Positions 7,440-61,254 of a DNA stretch of 64,000 bases are shown here, in pieces (within the stretch, counting starts at the first letter, position 1; each line of letters starts with the position of its first letter). The stretch spans positions 1 through 64,000 of the forward strand of contig WRGR01000039.1 of assembly GCA_009787085.1 (NCBI GenBank), read 5' to 3'. The stretch comes from Actinomycetes bacterium (GTDB taxonomy: Bacteria; Actinomycetota; Coriobacteriia; Coriobacteriales; UBA8131). The notes beneath the pieces are model-generated. The model saw nothing but the letters and a program-made list of their open reading frames with translations. It searched no databases and was not told the DNA's origin. The position numbers and the translations under genes were made by a program.

Positions 7440-9533
7440 ATGACTGCGTTCATTGAAAGGATCGCAATCCGGCTCTCTGAGAACCGGATGGCGCGGATTA
7501 TCAACAAAGGCCTGATCAACCTGATCCCATTTATTCTGATCGGGGCGATCTGTTTGGCTACGTTGGAAATTCCCATCCCGGCCTACCAGCATTTCATAAG
7601 CACCGTGCTGGGCGGGAGTTTCTTGATGGTGCTGAACGATGCGACGTTCGAGGTCATTGCCTTGGCGGCGTTGCTCTCGGTGTCCCATGCCAGTGCCAGG
7701 GAGCACCGTTCGACCCGCAATAGCTCGGTTCATGTGGTTATCCCGATGTTCGTCAGCTTTGCCGCCTTCACGATTCTTTTTGCCAGTTGGGATCGGGTGG
7801 ATAAGATATTCTATTTCACCGACCTCGGCGCTTCGGGCATGTTCCGCGCCTTTCTGGTAGGCCTGGTGGCCACCGAGCTTTTCTTCTACTTCGCCCGCTT
7901 TGGCGACTGGCTGCTTCCCGACCGTATCGGTTTTGACGCCTACTTGCAAATCCGCTCGGCCTTCCGTTCCATCATCCCCATCATCCTCACCCTTTTGGTC
8001 TGTACCGGGCTGCGTTTTGGCTTAGATCAGTTGGTCGTCCTGACTGGCATCGATAGCGAGTTCGGGAAGCTGATCAAGGCCAACTTGGTCAACGACTCGC
8101 TGCCCGCAGTCATCCAAACCGTGCTCTATTCGCAGGTTCTGGGCTTTTTTGGTGTTCACTATTTGTCGTCGTTTTCCTTCTTTCCCTTTGTCCGCGACAT
8201 TGCCGCCTCCGGATCCACCCCCGTAATGTTTGCCAGCCAAGACTTTTACTTGCAGTTTGTGGCCATTGGCGGTGCCGGGGCAACGCTGGGGCTGATCGTC
8301 GCCCTCTTTGCTGTGGGTTCCCGGGGGAAGAACCGCAGTTTTGCCAGGGCGGCTATTTTCCCAGCTGTCTTCAATTTGAACGAACCGTTGCTCTACGGCT
8401 TCCCAATTGTCTTGAACCCCTTTATGTTCATACCGTTCTTGCTGGCACCGATGGTGGCGGCGATACTCGGTTTCATCTGCTTCAGCACCGGCATCGTGCC
8501 GCCGATCATCAATGATGTCAGTTGGACATGTCCGCCTCTGATCTCCGGTTACCTCTCGACCGGGTCGCTGGCCGGCACGGCCTTGCAATGCGTGAGCATC
8601 GCTGCCTCCATCGGCCTTTACATACCTTTCGTCACTGCTCAGAAGGGCTTTGAGCGCAAGCAGTACGAACAGAACTTCAACCTGCTGCAAAAAACCGCCG
8701 AATCGGCCATCAAAAGCGAGTATCTGACGATCATCGACCGTGACGACGCCGTGGGCGAGATCGCCCGGGATTTCTCCATCAAACTGCGGGAATATGCCCT
8801 AGACGGCCAGCTGCCTTTCACTATGGCCTATCAGCCGAAGGTGGACAAGCACAACAAGCTGGTCGGCTGCGAGGCGTTGTTGCGCTGGCATGGCACCGAG
8901 ACCAAGAACATCTCGCCGCTGCTGCTGGTGGAGCTGATGGACGAGTCCGGCCTCTCCTCGGTGCTGGGGCGCTGGGTCACCGAGACTTGCATTCGGGAGT
9001 TCGCGGAACTGAAGGCCGGCGGTATCGAGGATTTGCGGATGTCACTGAACCTGAACCCCCGCCACTTGGCTGTTGATGACGGCTTCCTGAAATTCTTAAA
9101 GGAGCTGCGCGACCATTACCGCCTACAGCCCGGCGAGGTGGAGCTGGAGATCACCGAACACGCGATGGTGCGCCACAACATGGAGATGCGTAGGCTGTTT
9201 CGGAGCATGCGCGACCTAGGCTATAGCTTGGCCATCGACGACATGGGGGTAGGCTACAGCTCGCTCAGCTATATCAGCGACTTCGAGGTGCGCACGGTGA
9301 AGATCGATGCCTCGATGATCGACCGTGTCGAGGACGACTACCAGCAGCAAGAGATCGTCCGCTCCATCACCAACCTGGCCAAGCCGCTGGCCTTGACGGT
9401 GGTGGCGGAGGGCGTGGAGAAAGAGGGCCAGGTGGAGAGCTTGATCCAACTGGGCGTGGAGGTCTTCCAAGGCTATTACTTCAGCCGCCCGCTGACCAAG
9501 CAGGACTTCATCGAGTTCGCCAAGTCGCACTGA
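7440..9533 (+). CDS. PTS EIIC-like membrane domain fused to an EAL c-di-GMP phosphodiesterase domain
   Basis: EIIC core GFFGVHYLSSFSFFPF...AAIFPAVFNLNEPLLYGFPIVLNPFMFIPF; EAL motifs CEALLRW, LEITEHAM, AIDDMGVGYSSLSYI, VKIDASMI, VVAEGVE, FQGYYFSRPL. Confidence 0.92.
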   Translation: MTAFIERIAIRLSENRMARIINKGLINLIPFILIGAICLATLEIPIPAYQHFISTVLGGSFLMVLNDATFEVIALAALLSVSHASAREHRSTRNSSVHVVIPMFVSFAAFTILFASWDRVDKIFYFTDLGASGMFRAFLVGLVATELFFYFARFGDWLLPDRIGFDAYLQIRSAFRSIIPIILTLLVCTGLRFGLDQLVVLTGIDSEFGKLIKANLVNDSLPAVIQTVLYSQVLGFFGVHYLSSFSFFPFVRDIAASGSTPVMFASQDFYLQFVAIGGAGATLGLIVALFAVGSRGKNRSFARAAIFPAVFNLNEPLLYGFPIVLNPFMFIPFLLAPMVAAILGFICFSTGIVPPIINDVSWTCPPLISGYLSTGSLAGTALQCVSIAASIGLYIPFVTAQKGFERKQYEQNFNLLQKTAESAIKSEYLTIIDRDDAVGEIARDFSIKLREYALDGQLPFTMAYQPKVDKHNKLVGCEALLRWHGTETKNISPLLLVELMDESGLSSVLGRWVTETCIREFAELKAGGIEDLRMSLNLNPRHLAVDDGFLKFLKELRDHYRLQPGEVELEITEHAMVRHNMEMRRLFRSMRDLGYSLAIDDMGVGYSSLSYISDFEVRTVKIDASMIDRVEDDYQQQEIVRSITNLAKPLALTVVAEGVEKEGQVESLIQLGVEVFQGYYFSRPLTKQDFIEFAKSH

Positions 9534-23226: not shown

Positions 23227-24651
23227 ATGGATCTGAGCTTGGCGGATGTCGTTACGGCCAGTGGTGGCACCACGGTGCTCGCCGCCCCGGACGGCTGCCG
23301 TCGGATTCGTAACCTCAGTTGGGATTCGCGGCGGTTGGATGCCCAGACGGCCTTCCTTGCCCTGCCTGGAGAGCATTTTGACGGCAATGATTTTTTGAGT
23401 GAGGCGGCGGAGCTGTCACCGCTGCTGCTGGCCAGCCGCCCGACCACAGTTGCCGAGCGTCAGCGGGCCTCGGAGTTGGGTGCCGCTCTGGTGGAGCTGC
23501 AAGACCCCGAGTGGGCATTGGGGCAGATTGCCCGCTGCTGGCGCGGCAAGCTGGCAGCCAAGGTCATTGGCATTACCGGCTCCAGCGGCAAGACATCGAC
23601 CAAGGAACTGTTGCGGGTGGTTTTGGCCACGGCCTATCGGGTTTCAGCCAGTCCCGGCAACTTCAACAACCTGCTGGGGCTGCCAGCGGCGCTGTTGGCT
23701 ACGGATGCAGACGCTGAGGTGCTGGTATTGGAGATGGGCATGCAGCACTTTGGCGAGATCGCCCGTTATGCTGAGATTGCCGGACCACAAGTGGCTGTGC
23801 TGACGAATATTGGCTCAGCGCATCTGGAGATGCTCGGCAGCCGGGAGGCGATCGCTAGGGCGAAGGCTGAACTGCCGGGTGCTTTGCCAGACGGCGAAGG
23901 GCTAGTGGTGGTGAATGGCGACGACCCTTACACCCCTTATGTGTTGGCTGTCAGCGGTGCTGAGGCGCGGCAGTTGACGGTGCTGCGCTACGGGTTGGCT
24001 GAGGCTAACCAGGTTCGGGCGACTAATATTGTCTATGACGGAGATGGTCGGCCATGCTTCGATATTTGCTTCCCGGACACACTGGTCAAACAGCTGCAGT
24101 TGCAGCTGCAAGGCGAGCACAGTGTGCTGAATGCTTTGGCCGCCGCCGCCGTAGCCTGGAAACTGGGGGTGCCAGTGGACGTATTGCGGTCTGCCTTGGA
24201 GCAAAGTCGGCCGCCGACGCAGCGTCAAGAAGTGATCGAGCTGTCATCGGGTACGCTGATAATCAACGATTGCTATAACGCCAACCCAGAATCGATGCGC
24301 GCCGCCTTGACGACCCTGCAGCGCACCCGTCCGGAAAGCCCGCATATTGCGGTACTTGGCGACATGGGGGAACTGGGGCCTAGCGAACAGCAGCTGCACA
24401 CTGATCTGGGTGCCGAGGCGGCGGATTTGGGGCTGGCGCTGCTGGTTTGTGTGGGCCAGAAGGCTGCGTGGATCGCTGCAGGGGCTCGCCAAGGCGGCAT
24501 GCCCCCAAGCTCGGTGTTGTACTTTTCCGACTGGCAGGAAGCTGTTGATCGCTTGCTATCGATACTTGCCAGCAGAGCGGTTATACTGGTAAAGGCTTCG
24601 CGCTCAATGGCTTTGGAGCGTATTACCCAGGCACTTATCGATAGCTATTAA
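23227..24651 (+). CDS. murF: UDP-MurNAc-tripeptide:D-Ala-D-Ala ligase MurF
   Basis: GITGSSGKTSTKELL, INDCYNANPESMRAAL. Confidence 0.95.
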   Translation: MDLSLADVVTASGGTTVLAAPDGCRRIRNLSWDSRRLDAQTAFLALPGEHFDGNDFLSEAAELSPLLLASRPTTVAERQRASELGAALVELQDPEWALGQIARCWRGKLAAKVIGITGSSGKTSTKELLRVVLATAYRVSASPGNFNNLLGLPAALLATDADAEVLVLEMGMQHFGEIARYAEIAGPQVAVLTNIGSAHLEMLGSREAIARAKAELPGALPDGEGLVVVNGDDPYTPYVLAVSGAEARQLTVLRYGLAEANQVRATNIVYDGDGRPCFDICFPDTLVKQLQLQLQGEHSVLNALAAAAVAWKLGVPVDVLRSALEQSRPPTQRQEVIELSSGTLIINDCYNANPESMRAALTTLQRTRPESPHIAVLGDMGELGPSEQQLHTDLGAEAADLGLALLVCVGQKAAWIAAGARQGGMPPSSVLYFSDWQEAVDRLLSILASRAVILVKASRSMALERITQALIDSY

Positions 24652-24678: not shown

Positions 24679-25908
24679 ATGGCACAGACGGGGAACGCAG
24701 ATTTTGTCCCTCTGATTTTTGCTTCAGATATCAATGTTTACAGTGTCGCCCGGGCTTTTCACGAACAGTACGGTATTGTCAGTGCTGCCATTGGCAAAGT
24801 CGTCTCGGGTCCCGTGCGCTATAGCTCTATCGTCGACTACCGGCCTCACCCCCAAGCCGATTCAGCGGCTGTATTGCCCAGGCTGGTTCGGGATTTCGCT
24901 GCCGCCCACTCCGAGCAGCGGGTTATTGTCTTAGGCTGTGGCGACAACTACGTGCGTCAGATCAGCATTGCCAAGCCAGACTTTCCGGAGAATGTTGTTG
25001 CCCCCTACTTGGACATCGATGAGCTTGACCGCTTGGCCAACAAAGAGCATTTCTACCGACTCTGTGAGCAGGCTGGGGTGGTCTACCCGCGAAGCTTTAT
25101 CTGCTCTGGGCCTCTGGACGATCATTTACAACTAGAGTTTGACGCTCCGTATGTAGTTAAGCCAGCCAACAGTGTTTCTTGGTGGCAACACCCCTTCAAA
25201 GGTCAACGCAAAGTGCATCTGGTGCAGATGCCCGATGACTTGAAAGCCTTGCTCTCGGCAATTTACGCTGCCGGTTATCCGGACACCATGATCATCCAGG
25301 AGTATATTGGCGGCGGTGATGCTGCCCTGCGGGTGCTGACCCAGTACTTTGACCAAAATGGGGTGTTAAGGCTGTCTTGTGCCGGGCAGGTGCTGTTAGA
25401 AGAGCACACAGCTCATGGCATCGGCAACAGTACAGTGATCTTGAGCGAGCCTCATCCGGCGCTTGCCCAGCAGTTAGCAGCGCTGCTCCAGAATGTCGGC
25501 TATCGTGGCTTTGCCGCTTTTGATGTCAAGTTCGACCACCGCGACCAGTGCTTCAAGGTGCTGGAAGTGAACACCAGGCAGGGTCGCGGCAACTATTATG
25601 TCACCGCTGCCGGCATCAACATTGCCCGTCACTTGGCTGAGGACGTGGTATATGGGAAGGGGCTTGACCCAGAACTTGAGGGCCGCCGTGCCTGTTGGTC
25701 GCTGCTGCCGCACCGGGTACTTTTAGAGGCTGCCGCCACCGCTGGGCTAAAGGACGATGTCCAAGCTCTGAAAGATGCGGGGCAGGTGATAAGCCCGCTG
25801 GTCTATGCCGCCGACAAAAACCTGATGCGCTCTTTTTGGATATGGAAGTACACCAAGCGCCTGACCCGTAACTATGACGAATGGCAGCGTGAACTGGCCG
25901 ATGCCTGA
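24679..25908 (+). CDS. ATP-grasp ligase, COG3919-like; candidate D-aspartate ligase or carboxylate-amine ligase
   Basis: VPLIFASDINVYSVARAFHEQYGIVSAAIGK; ATP-grasp core PYVVKPANS, MIIQEYIGGGD, FKVLEVNTRQGRGNYYVTAAGIN; embedded between murF and murE. Confidence 0.75.
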   Translation: MAQTGNADFVPLIFASDINVYSVARAFHEQYGIVSAAIGKVVSGPVRYSSIVDYRPHPQADSAAVLPRLVRDFAAAHSEQRVIVLGCGDNYVRQISIAKPDFPENVVAPYLDIDELDRLANKEHFYRLCEQAGVVYPRSFICSGPLDDHLQLEFDAPYVVKPANSVSWWQHPFKGQRKVHLVQMPDDLKALLSAIYAAGYPDTMIIQEYIGGGDAALRVLTQYFDQNGVLRLSCAGQVLLEEHTAHGIGNSTVILSEPHPALAQQLAALLQNVGYRGFAAFDVKFDHRDQCFKVLEVNTRQGRGNYYVTAAGINIARHLAEDVVYGKGLDPELEGRRACWSLLPHRVLLEAAATAGLKDDVQALKDAGQVISPLVYAADKNLMRSFWIWKYTKRLTRNYDEWQRELADA

Positions 25909-27508
25909 CATTGCGGACAGATTTATAAAACGGCTGGCACTTTCGGAGTTCTGCCGCCGTCTGGATGTTGCCGGCCAGCTGCAGGCTGTGGTGCCCGCTG
26001 CTGCTTTGGCCGCAGAGAATGCGGCACTGGCGGCCGCGGGTGGCTTGGGAGCCGCCGTCTTACCGGCCACTGGGGACGGGCTGTTGTTGGGCGATGCTTT
26101 TCCCGGTCATCTCAGCTACGACTCCCGTGACGTGGTGCCCGGCAGTTTGTTTTTTTGTAAGGGGGCGCGTTTCGACTCGGCATTCTTGGTAGCGGCGCTG
26201 GAACTAGGAGCTTTGGCCTATGTCAGCGAGACTGCCTACCCGGTAGGCGGCATCGGTATCATCGTTCGTGACGTGCGCAAGGCAATGGCCATGGCCGCCG
26301 CTTGGTATTACGAGGGCCTATTGGACCGGCTGAAGTTGATCGGAGTTACCGGCACCAAGGGCAAGTCGACCACGGTCTATTTTATCCGCGCCGTCCTCGA
26401 TGCCTGGATGGCCGAGCTCGGCCAGCCGAACACCGCCTTCCTTTCCAGTATCGACAACTATGACGGCGTAAAAAGCGATGAGTCCCACCTCACTACCCAA
26501 GAAAGCTTCGAGCTCTACCGGCGCTTCGCCCATGCCGTCTCCCAAGGCATCGGCTATTTATCGATGGAGGTGTCCAGTCAAGCTTTGAAGTACGACCGCA
26601 CCTACGGCATCGATTTCGATGTCAGTTGCTTTTTGAACTTCGGCCGTGACCATATCTCCGATATCGAACACCCCAGCTTGGATGACTATTTGGCTTCCAA
26701 GCTGCGTATCTTTGCCCAAAGCCGCACGGCTTGCGTTAATCTTGGCAGTGCTGAGCTGCCACAGGTGCTGAAGGCTGCTGCCGCTGCCGACCAAGTAGTC
26801 AGTTTTGGCCTCGGTGCCGACTGTCGAGCCGATGTTTGGGCCAGCGAGGTGCGGCCGCAGGGCTTGGGCACCGCCTTTGTGGCTTCGGTCTTCGGTAGCG
26901 TTATCGAGCTGCAACTGGGCTTGATCGGCAGGTTCAACGTCGAGGACGCCTTGGCGGCAGTCGCCGTTACCAGCGTGTTAGGGGTACCGGCCAGCGCCAT
27001 TCAGAGCGGTTTGGCCACAGCTCGTGTGCCGGGGCGGATGGAGCTGTTCCGGGCACCCGGCAACAAGACGGTGATCGTCGACTACGCCCATAACCAGATG
27101 AGTTTTGAGGCACTGTTCAGCGCCGTGCAGCAAGAGTTTCCGGAAAGCAGCATTTCCGTGGTCTTCGGCTGCCCGGGGCTCAAGGCCCATGACCGCCGTT
27201 CAGACCTTGGCCGCATTGCCGCCGTTCAGGCCACTGATATCGTGTTGACTGAGGAAGACCCCGGAGAAGAGCCTCCCGAGGCGATATGTTTAGATATTGC
27301 CCGCCACGTGGTTCGGGCCGGCGGCCGGCCACGGATTATCATCGATCGAGAGGAAGCCATTATCAGCAGTATCCAAAACGCACCGGAGAAGGCCGTAGTG
27401 CTTGTTACCGGCAAGGGCAGGGAGACCCGGCAAAAGCGGGGCAGAGAGTATGTTGAAGTCTTATCTGACGTGGATATTGTCCAGCGCTACATCGGGGCAG
27501 GGCAATGA
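25901..27508 (+). CDS. murE: MurE-type UDP-MurNAc-tripeptide synthetase (probably not a meso-DAP enzyme)
   Basis: GVTGTKGKSTTVYFI, YLSMEVSSQALKYDRTYGIDFD, VIVDYAHNQMSFE; EEDPGEEPP where DAP enzymes carry DNPR. Confidence 0.88.
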   Translation: MPDIADRFIKRLALSEFCRRLDVAGQLQAVVPAAALAAENAALAAAGGLGAAVLPATGDGLLLGDAFPGHLSYDSRDVVPGSLFFCKGARFDSAFLVAALELGALAYVSETAYPVGGIGIIVRDVRKAMAMAAAWYYEGLLDRLKLIGVTGTKGKSTTVYFIRAVLDAWMAELGQPNTAFLSSIDNYDGVKSDESHLTTQESFELYRRFAHAVSQGIGYLSMEVSSQALKYDRTYGIDFDVSCFLNFGRDHISDIEHPSLDDYLASKLRIFAQSRTACVNLGSAELPQVLKAAAAADQVVSFGLGADCRADVWASEVRPQGLGTAFVASVFGSVIELQLGLIGRFNVEDALAAVAVTSVLGVPASAIQSGLATARVPGRMELFRAPGNKTVIVDYAHNQMSFEALFSAVQQEFPESSISVVFGCPGLKAHDRRSDLGRIAAVQATDIVLTEEDPGEEPPEAICLDIARHVVRAGGRPRIIIDREEAIISSIQNAPEKAVVLVTGKGRETRQKRGREYVEVLSDVDIVQRYIGAGQ

Positions 27509-29124
27509 GCGGCCTCCGGCCACAACAGCCGCCGCCCAGTCAGGAAGCCCCGGGTGCACGACCGCTGCCACACCTGATCAGCATCCTGCTTGGCTCCGAG
27601 GTCTGCATCCTCGGCCTTGGTGTTACTGGCTTGGCAGTCGCCCGCTACTTCCTGCGTCTGCCGTCGCCGCCGAACCTTTCCATTTATGTCGAAGACCTGA
27701 CTCCGAAAAATGAACGAGCCATCATCGGCTTGGCCGACGAGTTCTTCAGCGACCAAAGCACGATGTTGACCAATGAGATGCGTCGCCACGAGACTCTGCT
27801 CCTGGTGGCAGGCAGCGGTGAGGATCTGCATTACCTGCATATTCATACTGCCGCTAAAGAGGTCAGGGAGGATTATCGGCTGGGGGTTATTAGCCCGGGC
27901 ATCAAGCCGACCGCCAAGCTCTTTCAAAGCGCCCATGCCCATTGCGATGAGCTGATCGGTGAGCCGGAGCTGGCCTTCCGCGTTTCTCCACAACGTTGGC
28001 TGGCAGTGACTGGCACCAATGGCAAGACCACCACCACCTGGCTTTTGAGCCATCTTTTGAATGTGGCGGGCATTCCTGCCCGGGTAGCGGGCAACATTGG
28101 CCCAACACTGATCGATGCCGTTCAGGAGCGTGCAGATGATGAGTATATCGTTGCTGAGCTTTCCTCCTTCCAGTTGGCAAACTCGCCATCCATTGCTCCT
28201 GAGGCGGCGATACTCCTGAATATCACCACCGACCATATCAGTTGGCATGGCAGCTTTGATGCCTACTACGAAGCCAAATTGCGGGTTTTTAGCTGCATGC
28301 GGCCAAATGACATAGTGGTGATCGACGCAGTGTCCCGAACTGGCCAAGGCGTCATTGCCCGGGCCGAAGCCGCCGGCCATCGGGTGGTTCGCCTAGGCAG
28401 GCCACCAGCCGGGGGTGATGCGGTCGAAGCTGGGCTGGAAGCAGCTTGGGTAGACTCTGCTGGGCGCTTGGCACTGGCTTTGGACGGTCGCACGGAGTCG
28501 GTCATTGCTGCCTCCAAACTGAGGATAAAAGGGGAGCACAACCAGATGAACGCACTGGCTGGGGCAGCGGTTGCCCTGCACGTTGGTGCCAGCGTGGCAG
28601 CGCTTGAGCGGGGGCTGGCTACTTTCGCCCCCATCGAGCACCGTATTGAGCCAGCGGGCAGGGTCGGCGGAGTCGAATTTTTCAACGACTCCAAGGCCAC
28701 CAATCCAGAGGCCACCCTGATGGCCCTTTCGGCCTTTGACGACAGGCCTTTGATCTTGCTGCTCGGCGGCGAGGACAAGCACACCCCTTTGGATGAGCTG
28801 GTGGACAGAACCCTCCAGCGCTGTCGGCTGGTGCTCTGCTATGGCCAAGCAGCCCAACGCTTTTTCGATGCCTTCACTGTCGAGCTGCGCAAACAGGAGC
28901 GGGAAGAGGGTGTGGCCACCAGCCACTGCCAAGTTCTGCTCAGCAACACGATGCGCGAAGCATTCCAAGTTGCGGCCAGCCAGGCCCGTCCGGGCGATGT
29001 GGTGTTGCTCTCGCCGGCCTCGGCCTCCTTTGACGAGTTCAGTTGCTTTGAGGAGCGCGGTGCGACCTTCAAGCAGTATGTGGCCGAGATGGTCGGCTGG
29101 CACGCTCCACAGGCGGAGTTATGA
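27505..29124 (+). CDS. murD: UDP-MurNAc-L-Ala:D-Glu ligase MurD
   Basis: AVTGTNGKTTTTWLL, EFFNDSKATNPEATLMAL, LLLGGEDKHTPLDEL; 4-nt overlap with murE. Confidence 0.95.
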   Translation: MSGLRPQQPPPSQEAPGARPLPHLISILLGSEVCILGLGVTGLAVARYFLRLPSPPNLSIYVEDLTPKNERAIIGLADEFFSDQSTMLTNEMRRHETLLLVAGSGEDLHYLHIHTAAKEVREDYRLGVISPGIKPTAKLFQSAHAHCDELIGEPELAFRVSPQRWLAVTGTNGKTTTTWLLSHLLNVAGIPARVAGNIGPTLIDAVQERADDEYIVAELSSFQLANSPSIAPEAAILLNITTDHISWHGSFDAYYEAKLRVFSCMRPNDIVVIDAVSRTGQGVIARAEAAGHRVVRLGRPPAGGDAVEAGLEAAWVDSAGRLALALDGRTESVIAASKLRIKGEHNQMNALAGAAVALHVGASVAALERGLATFAPIEHRIEPAGRVGGVEFFNDSKATNPEATLMALSAFDDRPLILLLGGEDKHTPLDELVDRTLQRCRLVLCYGQAAQRFFDAFTVELRKQEREEGVATSHCQVLLSNTMREAFQVAASQARPGDVVLLSPASASFDEFSCFEERGATFKQYVAEMVGWHAPQAEL

Positions 29125-30272: not shown

Positions 30273-32795
30273 GTGTCTGATTTCAAACATGTGCACTTTA
30301 TCGGCGCGGGCGGATCCGGCATGAGCGGCTTGGTGCTGCTTGCCCATGCCCAAGGGCTGAAGGTTTCGGGTTCTGATCAGAAGCCGACGAAATACTTGGA
30401 GGCCGTGCTGGCAGCTGGTATTCCCGTGAGCTTTGAGCAGCAAGCTGCCAATGTTGCCGACAGCAGCATAGACTTGGTTGTGGTTTCCACCGCTGTGCCC
30501 GATGACAACCCGGAGCTGGCGGCCGCCCGGCAACGTGGCTTGACCATCTGGAAGCGGGCGCAGATGCTGGATTGGCTGGGACGCGGCAAACGCTGCTTGG
30601 CTGTAGCCGGCACCCATGGCAAGACCACCACCTCCTCGATGCTGGCCTCGACTTTGGACGGCCTGTTCCTTGACCCGAGCTTTCTAATCGGTGGTGTGTT
30701 GGCGGGCTTCGGTGCCACCGCCCGCAGTGGCCGAGGTGAGGACTACGTAATCGAGGCCGACGAATCCGACGAGTCCTTCGTCTACCTGCATCCTAAGCTG
30801 GCGATCATCACTAACATCGAGTGGGATCACATTGACCACTATGCGTCGTTGCAAGAGGTAGAGGCGGCCTTCAGCCGTTTTATCCAGACCATTGACCCTG
30901 ACGGCTGCCTGGTCTGTTGTGCCGATGACCCGGTCTTATTGGCGGTAGCCAGGTCATCCGGACGGAGTTTTGTGACCTATGGCGAAATGGCAGGTGCTGA
31001 CTACCGCTGTCTGCCCGAAGCGGCCTCCTGCTTCACTGTCTGCTATCCGGACGGGCAGAGGCTCAGCGTCAGGATCGACACCTCGCCCGGCATACATAAC
31101 ATGCTCAATGCCAGCGCTGTACTGGCGGCCTTGGACCTGTTGGGTCTAGATCGCAGCGCCACTGCCGCCGCCTTATCTGGGTTTGCTGGTGCCAAACGGC
31201 GTTTTGAGCTTGTCGGCGAGGTGCGGCAAGTACAGGTAGTCGATGACTATGGGCACCATCCAACAGAGTTCAAGGCCACGTTGGCCGCCGCGCAGAGCTT
31301 GGGTTATCGGCGTGTCCACCTGCTTTTTCAGCCACATCGCTTCACCCGTCTGCAGGGTCTATTCAATGACTTCGTCGAATCCTTCGACCTTGCCGATAGC
31401 ATCAGCCTACTTGAGGTCTATCCGGCTGGGGAGCAACCCATCGAGGGCATTGACTCGCATGCTTTGGCCAGTGCTCTTCAAGAACGGCATCCGAAGAAGT
31501 TGGTAGAGGTTTTCCCCGACCCCAGTCAAGCCGTTCGGGCGCTAGCTGAGCTGGCCGGCCCCGACGACCTGGTCTTGACTATGGGGGCAGGGGACATCAC
31601 CCAGTTGGCACCAAAGATTGTCGAGGCTTTGGCCAGCCAGGACGGCAGCGACAGCGCTGGCCTGGGTCATCTGGCTGAGGTCGAAAACGATGTCTCCGCG
31701 CATGATACGAGCGGCCATTTAGCAGTGCGTCAGGAAAATCCCGAGGCGAGCCCGCCTATTGCCAAGGGCGGCGACCTGTCGGCTTCGATATTCGAAGCCT
31801 ATTGTGAGCTGGAAGGCAACATCCAAGGGAGCTTGATGCTCAATGAGCCGATGAACCGGCACACCAGCTTTCACATCGGCGGCCCAGTGGCCTTGCTTGT
31901 GGAGTGTGCCTCGATTGGCGATATGAATGAAAGCCTAAGTGTTATCCATAAATACCAACTGCCTTGGACGGTCATCGGCAAGGGCAGCAATCTTTTGGTC
32001 GCCGATGCGGGTTTCATGGGGGCGGTGCTCATCTTAGGGCGGGAGTTCAAGACATTCCATCTGCCCCATGACCATCCGGGTGAGACCTTGTCGGCCATGG
32101 CCAGCAGCCATGGCCAGCGGCGGCCACCCGCCCCGGATGTTCGTAGCGGCGGCGGTGCCGATGGGTCAAGTGACGGTAAGCTGGTGTGTGGTGCCGGAGT
32201 GTTGCTTGGCAATCTGGTACAAGCGGCCTTCAAATGTGGCTATTCCGGCCTAGAGTTTGCTGTTGGCATTCCTGGCACCCTCGGAGGCGCGGTGTTTATG
32301 AATGCCGGCAGTGCCAACGAATGGATCAGTTCGACGCTCAACGCGGTCACGGTGCTCAGGCCGGGCTGCGGCCTTGTTCGCTACCATGCCTGTGAGCTGC
32401 CTTGGAGTTACCGCTTTAGCGGCCTGCCGCCAGGAGAGGTGGTGGTAGAGGCCGAGCTGTTGGTGCGCAAGGGCAACCTTGAGCATATCCGGGGCAAAAT
32501 GGAGGCATTGTTGAGAAAACGCCAGAAGTCCCAGCCCCTTAGCCTCCCCAGTGCCGGCAGCGTATTCAGAAACCCTCCGGACGCTTCGGCCGGTCAGCTT
32601 ATTGACTCTTTAGGAATGAAAGGCTTCGCCATTGGCGATGCCAGCATCTCTGAGATGCATGCCAACTTTATTGTCAACCGTGGTCAGGCCAAGGCTGTTG
32701 ACGTGCTGGCGTTGATCCAAGAAGTGCGAAGGCGGGTGAAGGAGAGCTATGGTAAGGAACTCAGCACCGAAATCCGGTTCATCGGCTTCTCCTGA
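30273..32795 (+). CDS. MurC-MurB fusion (UDP-MurNAc:L-Ala ligase / UDP-MurNAc dehydrogenase)
   Basis: MurC half: HFIGAGGSGMSGLVLL, VAGTHGKTTTSSML, VDDYGHHPTEFKATL. MurB half: NRHTSFHIGGPVALLVEC, IGKGSNLLVADAGF, GIPGTLGGAVFMNAGS, SAGSVFRNP. One continuous 840-codon frame. Confidence 0.94.
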   Translation: MSDFKHVHFIGAGGSGMSGLVLLAHAQGLKVSGSDQKPTKYLEAVLAAGIPVSFEQQAANVADSSIDLVVVSTAVPDDNPELAAARQRGLTIWKRAQMLDWLGRGKRCLAVAGTHGKTTTSSMLASTLDGLFLDPSFLIGGVLAGFGATARSGRGEDYVIEADESDESFVYLHPKLAIITNIEWDHIDHYASLQEVEAAFSRFIQTIDPDGCLVCCADDPVLLAVARSSGRSFVTYGEMAGADYRCLPEAASCFTVCYPDGQRLSVRIDTSPGIHNMLNASAVLAALDLLGLDRSATAAALSGFAGAKRRFELVGEVRQVQVVDDYGHHPTEFKATLAAAQSLGYRRVHLLFQPHRFTRLQGLFNDFVESFDLADSISLLEVYPAGEQPIEGIDSHALASALQERHPKKLVEVFPDPSQAVRALAELAGPDDLVLTMGAGDITQLAPKIVEALASQDGSDSAGLGHLAEVENDVSAHDTSGHLAVRQENPEASPPIAKGGDLSASIFEAYCELEGNIQGSLMLNEPMNRHTSFHIGGPVALLVECASIGDMNESLSVIHKYQLPWTVIGKGSNLLVADAGFMGAVLILGREFKTFHLPHDHPGETLSAMASSHGQRRPPAPDVRSGGGADGSSDGKLVCGAGVLLGNLVQAAFKCGYSGLEFAVGIPGTLGGAVFMNAGSANEWISSTLNAVTVLRPGCGLVRYHACELPWSYRFSGLPPGEVVVEAELLVRKGNLEHIRGKMEALLRKRQKSQPLSLPSAGSVFRNPPDASAGQLIDSLGMKGFAIGDASISEMHANFIVNRGQAKAVDVLALIQEVRRRVKESYGKELSTEIRFIGFS

Positions 32796-58922: not shown

Positions 58923-59070
58923 CACCCAATTTTTCCGAAGGTGAGGATCTCTTCTGCGATCGTCCATCCCAAAACCGGAGATTTCCTTTAAAATGGATGA
59001 GGCTTTCTATCGTTAGCCATTTGTATGCCCCTTATTGTTTGTTCCGAATTCTCAGAGGAGGACTGTCTGG

Positions 59071-61254
59071 ATGTCTGATATTGTCCAAACTACAGGAATG
59101 TTGGCCTGGATCGCGCCTGCTGCCGCTGTCATCGGCTTGGCCTTTGCGGCCTATTTGGCTATCTGGGTGCTGAAGCAGGATGCTGGCAACGAGCGAATGC
59201 AGTACCTGTCCGGTTTGATCCAAAAAGGCGCTAAGGCCTTTCTGATCGCCGAGTACAAGAGCCTGATCATCTTCGCGCTGGTCGTGGCCATCGTCTTGGG
59301 GGCGGCCATCAGCCCCTTCACCGCCTTGGCCTTCTTGACCGGCGGCATCTTGTCTGTTATTGCTGGTTATATTGGCATGTACGTGGCTACCCGGGCCAAT
59401 GCCCGTACCACTCATGCTGCCCAAACGGGTATTGCCGCCGCACTCAAAGTGGCCTATCGCTCCGGTCTGACCATGGGCCTGGTCGTGGCCTCGCTCGGCC
59501 TTTTCGGCCTCGCCCTCTGGGCGATCTTCTTTTTGGTCAACGCCGCGCACCCGGAGCCGGAGATCGTTGATGGCTTTGTGATGGGTGCCTCATCGATAGC
59601 GCTCTTTGCCCGTGTTGGCGGCGGCATCTACACCAAGGCGGCCGATGTCGGCGCTGATTTGGTGGGCAAAGTCGAGGCTGGCATTCCCGAAGACGACCCG
59701 CGCAATCCCGGTGTCATCGCTGATAACGTCGGCGACAACGTCGGCGATGTGGCCGGTATGGGTGCCGACCTCTATGAGAGCTATGCCGGTGCCCTTCTGG
59801 CACCAATGGTGCTGGCGGTGGCAATGGCCTTCACCGTCGGCTCGCCGCTGGGTGGCGGTTTGATCGAAGAGGGCAATCACAGCATTTTTGCCGGCTTCAC
59901 CCTAGACGGCATCTTAGCCCTGATCATGCCGCTGTTGTTCGCTGCAGGCGGCATCATTGCTGCCATCGTCGGCTTGCTGGCTGTGAACACCCAGGATCCC
60001 AACAAGATCCACAAAGCTTTGAACCGCGGCACCTACCTGACCTCTGGTTTGGAGCTGGTGATCATTCTCGTCCTCTGCCTGATTTGGCAAAGTGTCGGCA
60101 ATATTCCCGCGGTTTGGTTCTTCGGTTGCACGGCTGCCGGCTTGGCTGCCGGTCTGGCCATCGGCAAGCTTACCGAGTATTACACTTCCTATCACCATAA
60201 ACCGGTGAAGAAAATCGCCCAAGCTTCAGAGACCAGCACGGCGACCAATATCATCGAAGGCCTCGCCACTGGTATGTTCTCCACTGTGTTTCCGGCTCTT
60301 GTACTGGTGGCCGCAGTGGCTGTGGCCTATATCTGTGGTATGCAGGTGGGTGGCAAGGAATGGGCCTTGCAGTTCGGTGTTTACGGCATTGGCCTTTCGG
60401 CCTTGGGCATGCTCTCCACCACAGCGGTTACCGTCGGTGTGGACGCTTATGGGCCGGTGGCCGACAATGCCGGTGGCATTGCCGAGATGGCCGGTCTGCC
60501 ACCGGAGATCCGGGAGCGCACTGATGCTTTGGATACTGTGGGCAACACCACCGCTGCTGTGGCCAAAGGCTTCGCAGTTTCCTCGGCTGCTTTGACGGCC
60601 CTAGCCCTCTTCGTCGCCTTCAAAACCAATTTGGAGCATCATCTTGGCAAGGATGCCATGCTTGTTCAGCTGGACAATCCGTATGTGATCATCGGTGTCC
60701 TCATTGGGGCAACTATGCCGTTCTTCTTCGCCGCCATGACCATGGGGGCGGTGAGCCGGGCGGCCAATGCTATGATCGTTGAGATACGGCGTCAGTTCCG
60801 GGAGATCAAGGGGCTTTTAGCTGGCGATCCGGGAGTCGAGCCGGACACTGAGGCTTGCGTGACCATCTCCACCAAGGCCGCCTTGCGAGAGATGCTGTTG
60901 CCGGGAATTCTGGCCGTAGTGATCCCGGTGGTCTTGGGCATCCTAGATGTCAAGATATTGTCGGGAATGTTGATCGGCACCCTGTGCTGCGGTTTTTTGA
61001 TGAGCGTCTACATGGCCAACACCGGTGGTGCTTGGGATAATGCCAAGAAGTACATCGAGACCGGTGTCCACGGTGGCAAGGGTTCAGATGCGCATAAGGC
61101 CGCTGTGGTCGGCGACACTGTTGGCGACCCGTTCAAAGACACTTCCGGCCCCTCCATCAACATTCTGATCAAGGTGGTCACCGTGGTGTCGTTGGTCTTC
61201 GTGCCGCTCTTTGCCAATTTGGGCGGTGGAGTGTTGCACGGCATCATTGGCTAA
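59071..61254 (+). CDS. hppA: Membrane-bound ion-translocating pyrophosphatase
   Basis: GGGIYTKAADVGADLVGKVEAGIPEDDPRNPGVIADNVGDNVGDVAGMGADLYESY; DTVGNTTAAVAKGFA; VVGDTVGDPFKDTSGPSINILIK. Start set to ATG 59071. Confidence 0.96.
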   Translation: MSDIVQTTGMLAWIAPAAAVIGLAFAAYLAIWVLKQDAGNERMQYLSGLIQKGAKAFLIAEYKSLIIFALVVAIVLGAAISPFTALAFLTGGILSVIAGYIGMYVATRANARTTHAAQTGIAAALKVAYRSGLTMGLVVASLGLFGLALWAIFFLVNAAHPEPEIVDGFVMGASSIALFARVGGGIYTKAADVGADLVGKVEAGIPEDDPRNPGVIADNVGDNVGDVAGMGADLYESYAGALLAPMVLAVAMAFTVGSPLGGGLIEEGNHSIFAGFTLDGILALIMPLLFAAGGIIAAIVGLLAVNTQDPNKIHKALNRGTYLTSGLELVIILVLCLIWQSVGNIPAVWFFGCTAAGLAAGLAIGKLTEYYTSYHHKPVKKIAQASETSTATNIIEGLATGMFSTVFPALVLVAAVAVAYICGMQVGGKEWALQFGVYGIGLSALGMLSTTAVTVGVDAYGPVADNAGGIAEMAGLPPEIRERTDALDTVGNTTAAVAKGFAVSSAALTALALFVAFKTNLEHHLGKDAMLVQLDNPYVIIGVLIGATMPFFFAAMTMGAVSRAANAMIVEIRRQFREIKGLLAGDPGVEPDTEACVTISTKAALREMLLPGILAVVIPVVLGILDVKILSGMLIGTLCCGFLMSVYMANTGGAWDNAKKYIETGVHGGKGSDAHKAAVVGDTVGDPFKDTSGPSINILIKVVTVVSLVFVPLFANLGGGVLHGIIG

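Follow-up and report, generated by a model that had tools for sequence, protein, structure and literature searches.

A putative acidic D-amino acid bridge ligase encoded between murF and murE in an uncultured Coriobacteriia-like bacterium

AslA of Lactococcus and lactobacilli and Aslfm of Enterococcus faecium are ATP-grasp ligases that act on the amine of the third residue of peptidoglycan precursors. In L. lactis, the gene set of the D-Asp bridge comprises AslA (the ATP-grasp enzyme), RacD and AsnH, and D-Asp is found in the walls of most lactobacilli, a statement that is not specific to the homologue strains compared below (PMC4155827). D-Asp and D-Glu cross-links are attributed to ATP-grasp ligases, those of Gly and L-amino acids to Fem ligases. 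The latter (FemAB/FemX) fill an equal biological slot, but are GNAT-fold, tRNA-dependent enzymes that add L-amino acids or Gly (PMC2922099).

The third residue itself is added by MurE. In DAP-type MurE, the Asn and Arg of a DNPR motif bind the free carboxylate of DAP; in the Lys-type enzyme of S. aureus, Ala replaces the Arg, and Asp-406 and Glu-460 hold the lysine amine. Mutation of the S. aureus motif did not switch specificity, to which features other than the motif also contribute (PMC3829189). The synthesis of A4-type bridges by an ATP-grasp ligase is already known; new here are a ligase embedded in the dcw cluster without an aspartate racemase and a putative change of donor.

The ligase-murE locus

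The window analysed here is a stretch of 64,000 nt (contig WRGR01000039.1 of GCA_009787085.1, positions 1 to 64,000, forward strand) from an uncultured Coriobacteriia-like bacterium (GTDB Actinomycetota; Coriobacteriia; Coriobacteriales; UBA8131), for which Coriobacteriia MAGs were the nearest named matches in a homologue search. The assembly (G000) comprises 1.83 Mb, is 93.6% complete and carries the ligase in single copy.

An earlier note had described an ATP-grasp gene coupled to murE inside the dcw cluster, and the ORF coordinates confirm it, with murF on its other side (Table 1). The start that it gave (‘VPLIF...’) is residue 10 of a frame that opens at ATG 24679 with MAQTGNADFVPLIFASDINVYSVARAFHEQYG; this ATG is preceded by AGAGGGAGA about 10 nt upstream. 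The reported 8-nt overlap with murE is present, with the ligase stop TGA at 25906-25908 and the in-frame murE ATG at 25901-25903, and suggests translational coupling; it would extend to 35 nt if the alternative murE start at ATG 25874 were used. Together, murF, the ligase gene, murE, murD and murG form a single tightly packed unit within the cluster. A promoter and terminator scan yielded hits at about chance level.

Table 1 Features of the ligase-murE locus, in window coordinates
Feature	Position	Strand	Basis
murF, 27 nt upstream of the ligase gene	23227..24651	+	ORF, NCBIfam, conserved murF-ligase-murE block
ATP-grasp ligase, 409 aa, predicted peptidoglycan side-chain (cross-bridge) ligase	24679..25908	+	ORF, conserved residues, model/fold, context
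Overlap of ligase stop and murE start, 8 nt, ATGCCTGA	25901..25908	+	Sequence
murE, predicted L-Lys/L-Orn-adding	25901..27508	+	ORF, NCBIfam, motif, nearest relatives, alignment
E452-D453-P454-G455, site of DNPR in DAP-adding MurE	27254..27265	+	Alignment
E508 in GKGRE, site of E. coli Glu-468 / S. aureus Glu-460	27422..27424	+	E. coli alignment; S. aureus counterpart inferred
murD, 4-nt overlap with murE	27505..29124	+	Synteny with relatives L031 and L032, sequence reading

Downstream, 30273-32795 (+) reads as an apparent MurC-MurB fusion in one 840-aa ORF, and one relative (L031) gives a MurC-B match of similar length. Elsewhere in the window, a 697-aa ORF at 7440-9533 (+) carries an EAL c-di-GMP phosphodiesterase domain (residues 460-694) fused behind a PTS EIIC-like membrane domain of the cellobiose/lactose type (8-402), and 59035-61254 (+) encodes a membrane-bound sodium/proton-translocating pyrophosphatase.

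Assignment of the ligase and of MurE

The window ligase alone gave no match in Pfam, and its sequence none in the PDB. NCBIfam returned weak matches to carbamoyl-phosphate-synthase-like, Ddl-like and L-Asp-L-Met ligase models, and no match to a D-Asp ligase model; Pfam ATP-grasp domains were detected in relatives of the ligase. An AlphaFold model of the enzyme (mean pLDDT 94.1) matches ATP-grasp ligases, its best fold matches being an L-amino acid ligase, PylC, purine enzymes and other ATP-grasp enzymes. Given the weak NCBIfam matches, the Pfam domains of the relatives and the confident model, we accept the ATP-grasp identity. In an alignment of 49 relatives, K122, K161, D286 and N298 are invariant and E296 and R300 nearly so; as modelled, the ligase has the ATP-grasp fold together with its ATP/Mg residues.

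Among these top PDB fold matches, PylC is about 15% identical to the ligase, and its complex with L-lysine-Ne-D-ornithine ranked fourteenth. It offers a helpful parallel, since PylC couples a D-amino acid to lysine through the epsilon-amine, although its acceptor is free lysine and its pathway a different one.

Homologues from L. crispatus, L. fermentum and L. curvatus, which stand here as proxies for authenticated AslA/Aslfm, align over 96-97% of the ligase at 31-33% identity, in keeping with the previously noted likeness to D-aspartate-ligase-type enzymes. The L. curvatus homologue adjoins an amino acid racemase and the L. crispatus homologue adjoins asnB. The window ligase differs from the AslA/Aslfm enzymes in its place between murF and murE, in core positions 213, 217, 245, 280 and 304 (judged against racemase-linked relatives), and in that its genome has no dedicated aspartate-type racemase, for which reason we do not file it under the aslA-racD system for D-Asp.

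The window MurE scores 298 bits against an NCBIfam murE cut-off of 257. At the position of DNPR it carries EDPG (TEEDPGEEPP, against TDDNPRTEEP in E. coli), confirming the replacement read earlier as EEDPGEEPP. The E. faecalis enzyme, annotated as an L-lysine ligase, has DDPA here, L. curvatus DDPG and Collinsella EDPA, whereas the MurEs of Listeria, Bacillus and E. coli have DNPR. The window MurE therefore lacks both the Asn and the Arg of DAP-carboxylate binding that mark a meso-DAP-adding enzyme. The acidic residue E508, at the place of E. coli Glu-468, which contacts the side-chain amine, is kept, GKGRE aligning to GKGHE of E. coli. The nearest named MurEs are those of Collinsella, E. faecalis and L. 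curvatus, ranked above the DAP-type ones. In the L-Lys-adding enzymes of E. faecalis and Lactobacillus, [DE]-D-P-[AG] likewise replaces DNPR; the window MurE is 34-35% identical to them, with Glu instead of Asp as first motif residue.

These features support the view that the enzyme is not DAP-type. They are strong but not decisive evidence that it adds L-Lys or L-Orn, since the motif does not separate these two residues and since mutating it in S. aureus left specificity unswitched. A DAP wall with direct cross-links was judged unlikely on the motif and the nearest MurE relatives. DapF and LysA are both encoded in the genome, so that DAP would be available, though both also serve lysine synthesis; DapF was dropped as a separator of wall types, as with LysA present DAP may serve lysine synthesis only.

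Conserved linkage and co-occurrence across the order

The order murF-ligase-murE is repeated in six related genomes (42-57% identity; two of the six blocks are cut by a contig end), and ligase-murE linkage extends to Clostridia and Bifidobacterium, which argues that the neighbourhood does not reflect chance. In Clostridia and Family XIII the order is ligase-racemase-murE; these ligases form a sister clade (42-48% identity) linked to a murE with the same TEED motif, but have an aspartate-type racemase between ligase and murE that the window lacks. Other arrangements are murE-ligase-racemase in Bifidobacterium, ligase-FemX-racemase in Sporosarcina, asnB-ligase-racemase in Aerococcus, asnB-ligase-murE in Oscillospiraceae-type MAGs and ligase-racemase-murC in other members of the window's family; Brachybacterium carries the ligase in two copies. 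In Firmicutes and Actinobacteria alike, these neighbours of the ligase relatives (murE, racemase, FemX or asnB) correspond to the gene set of D-Asp bridges.

Published wall types, which come from other strains than the loci, fit the ligase loci in the cases checked. A Sporosarcina species has an L-Lys-L-Ala-D-Asp wall (PMC10628120), the family of Brachybacterium has A4-gamma walls with mDAP (PMC6090031), and Olsenella uli, of the same class as the window organism, has an L-Orn-D-Asp wall (PMC3035265).

Some relatives are of interest in their own right. Genome G031 has two ligases (L008 and L029), one in a murF-ligase-murE block and the other, nearer the Sporosarcina enzymes, beside an aspartate-type racemase. 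In Arthrobacter beigongshangensis (L045), the ligase shares 71-83% identity with its Sporosarcina counterpart, as do FemX and the racemase with theirs, suggesting recent transfer or assembly contamination. Relatives also occur in phage-labelled records (LT985590.1 2712-3875; MT835538.1 29401-30612; the short ‘Listeria phage’ records OR848680 and OR847535), and represent either bacterial contamination or phages with a cell-wall bridge ligase.

To relate the ligase to the MurE type, we compared 57 genomes of the order in which the MurE motif could be read. Ligase or FemAB was found in 29 of the 31 non-DNPR genomes and in 4 of the 26 DNPR genomes (Fisher p=1.3e-9, genomes treated as independent). 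Kinship was handled by genus-level and single-family tables, not by tree correction: the counts were 16/18 non-DNPR against 3/21 DNPR genera (p=3e-6) and, within the window's family only, 9/10 against 0/8 genera (p=4e-4), genera being treated as independent in both. Linkage across phyla and this co-occurrence support the proposal of a dedicated side-chain or cross-bridge ligase made in one operon; on comparative evidence, both halves of the earlier reading, the non-DAP MurE and the dedicated ligase, are supported.

Among the non-DNPR genomes, ligase and FemAB are nearly exclusive, both occurring only in G036 and G040, and in five FemAB genomes FemAB lies ≤2 kb from murE. FemAB/FemX is found in sister genomes that share the MurE motif of the window; a search for FemAB domain proteins in the window genome gave no match, and a FemAB-type bridge in this organism was dropped.

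Four genomes (G038, G042, G050 and G057) pair the ligase with a DNPR MurE, so that the ligase alone is no proof of a Lys/Orn wall. In all four the ligase lies beside asnB (L027, L021, L020 and L023, respectively), and our guess is an A4-gamma-like wall with branched DAP. In the tree, the G038 ligase clusters with those of Brachybacterium and a sister genome, and the f2 ligases cluster with those from other families of this order. In two further genomes, G010 (L114) and G058 (L108), with assemblies 90-99% complete, a non-DNPR MurE was found with neither ligase nor FemAB; these possibly have a direct Lys/Orn cross-link or a novel bridge enzyme.

The donor amino acid and alternative readings

From the anatomy of the locus, homology, conserved linkage and co-occurrence we infer an activity, an order of steps, a donor and an acceptor. 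The pair probably comprises an acidic D-amino acid bridge ligase and a Lys/Orn-adding MurE that together give an A4-type wall. With ATP, the ligase, co-encoded with murE, would convert a carboxylate of an acidic D-amino acid into an acyl phosphate and would then link this amino acid to the free side-chain amine of the third residue, on a soluble or lipid-linked precursor. The product would be the branch residue of an A4-type cross-bridge, the ligase taking the slot that FemAB occupies in sister lineages.

Phylogenetic analysis bears on the donor. The six dcw-embedded ligases fall into a single clade (100/100) that is sister to a racemase-linked group (85/88); ligase-racemase-murE was probably the ancestral order, with the racemase lost later. 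No aspartate-type racemase (TIGR00035 above cut-off) was found in G000, G011, G014, G024, G025 or G029. A single draft assembly, 93.6% complete in the case of G000, could miss such a gene, but the completeness values give a probability of about 1.5e-4 that it was missed in every one of the six clade genomes. In G031 a racemase is present, but it adjoins the second, Sporosarcina-like ligase copy. The clade also differs at positions that are near-invariant in racemase-linked enzymes (D213, M217, P245, N280 and S304); of these, S304 follows the metal-binding E-x-N-x-R segment, near the substrate-holding site of Ddl. In the window genome, MurI, the D-Glu enzyme, is the only gene of the Asp/Glu-racemase superfamily, and a search for AsnB amidotransferase gave only partial or sub-threshold matches. 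With no aspartate-type racemase and MurI as the only such gene, we rank D-Glu, tentatively, as the first candidate donor.

That the same ligase adds D-Asp, as AslA does, is a somewhat less probable but serious alternative. An unrecognised source would then supply the D-Asp: a transaminase, another racemase, a gene missing from the assembly, or uptake in the gut. The genes of sister enzymes are linked to one for an aspartate-type racemase, and Olsenella uli offers L-Orn-D-Asp within the class. A class IV aminotransferase is encoded too, although it scores below the D-amino-acid-transaminase cut-off, and a transaminase source was set aside on this ground. Set against D-Asp are the rarity with which incompleteness alone would hide the racemase in six genomes and the alteration of conserved core residues in precisely this clade. 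These altered residues, lying near the catalytic segment, could also mean a changed donor site that accepts a neutral or L-amino acid such as Gly, L-Glu or L-Asp, and the fold matches L-amino acid ligases as well; we regard this as unlikely, since tRNA-dependent Fem enzymes are the usual route for adding Gly and L-amino acids (PMC2922099) and every linked partner in relatives points to a D-amino acid.

A further reading concerns the acceptor: MurE might still add meso-DAP through its altered motif, with the ligase branching the DAP amine to give an A4-gamma wall. DapF, the two ligase copies of Brachybacterium (from a family with A4-gamma walls and mDAP) and the four relatives that combine ligase and DNPR MurE would agree with this. 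Those relatives retain DNPR, however, whereas the window MurE has lost both residues that bind the DAP carboxylate and is most similar to Lys/Orn-type enzymes, making this improbable. Least probable of all is a non-peptidoglycan substrate with an incidental dcw location, as the generic nature of the best fold matches (L-amino acid ligase, PylC, purine enzymes) might allow, for linkage to peptidoglycan genes is kept across phyla and ligase presence tracks MurE type.

Returning to D-Glu, the racemase-less dcw clade may, and we put this forward with reserve, represent a dedicated UDP-MurNAc-peptide:D-glutamate ligase that evolved from D-Asp ligases. If so, the ligase would take its donor from the D-Glu that MurI already provides for MurD, and both the dropped aspartate racemase and the retained linkage to murE would be accounted for. 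Chemistry of this kind is familiar from lactic acid bacteria, but as the clade lacks the usual D-aspartate-making partner, the switch to D-Glu is a testable prediction. The clade provides a clear test case for the origin of D-Glu versus D-Asp specificity in bridge ligases. More broadly, the chemistry of the bridge has a say in which hydrolases, lysins, antibiotics and immune sensors can target a Gram-positive wall, yet is rarely readable from a genome. From the way in which the MurE motif (DNPR versus [ED]-D-[PA]-[GA]) covaries with the presence of the ATP-grasp ligase or FemAB, a simple means of predicting wall type from the genomes of uncultured Coriobacteriia suggests itself.
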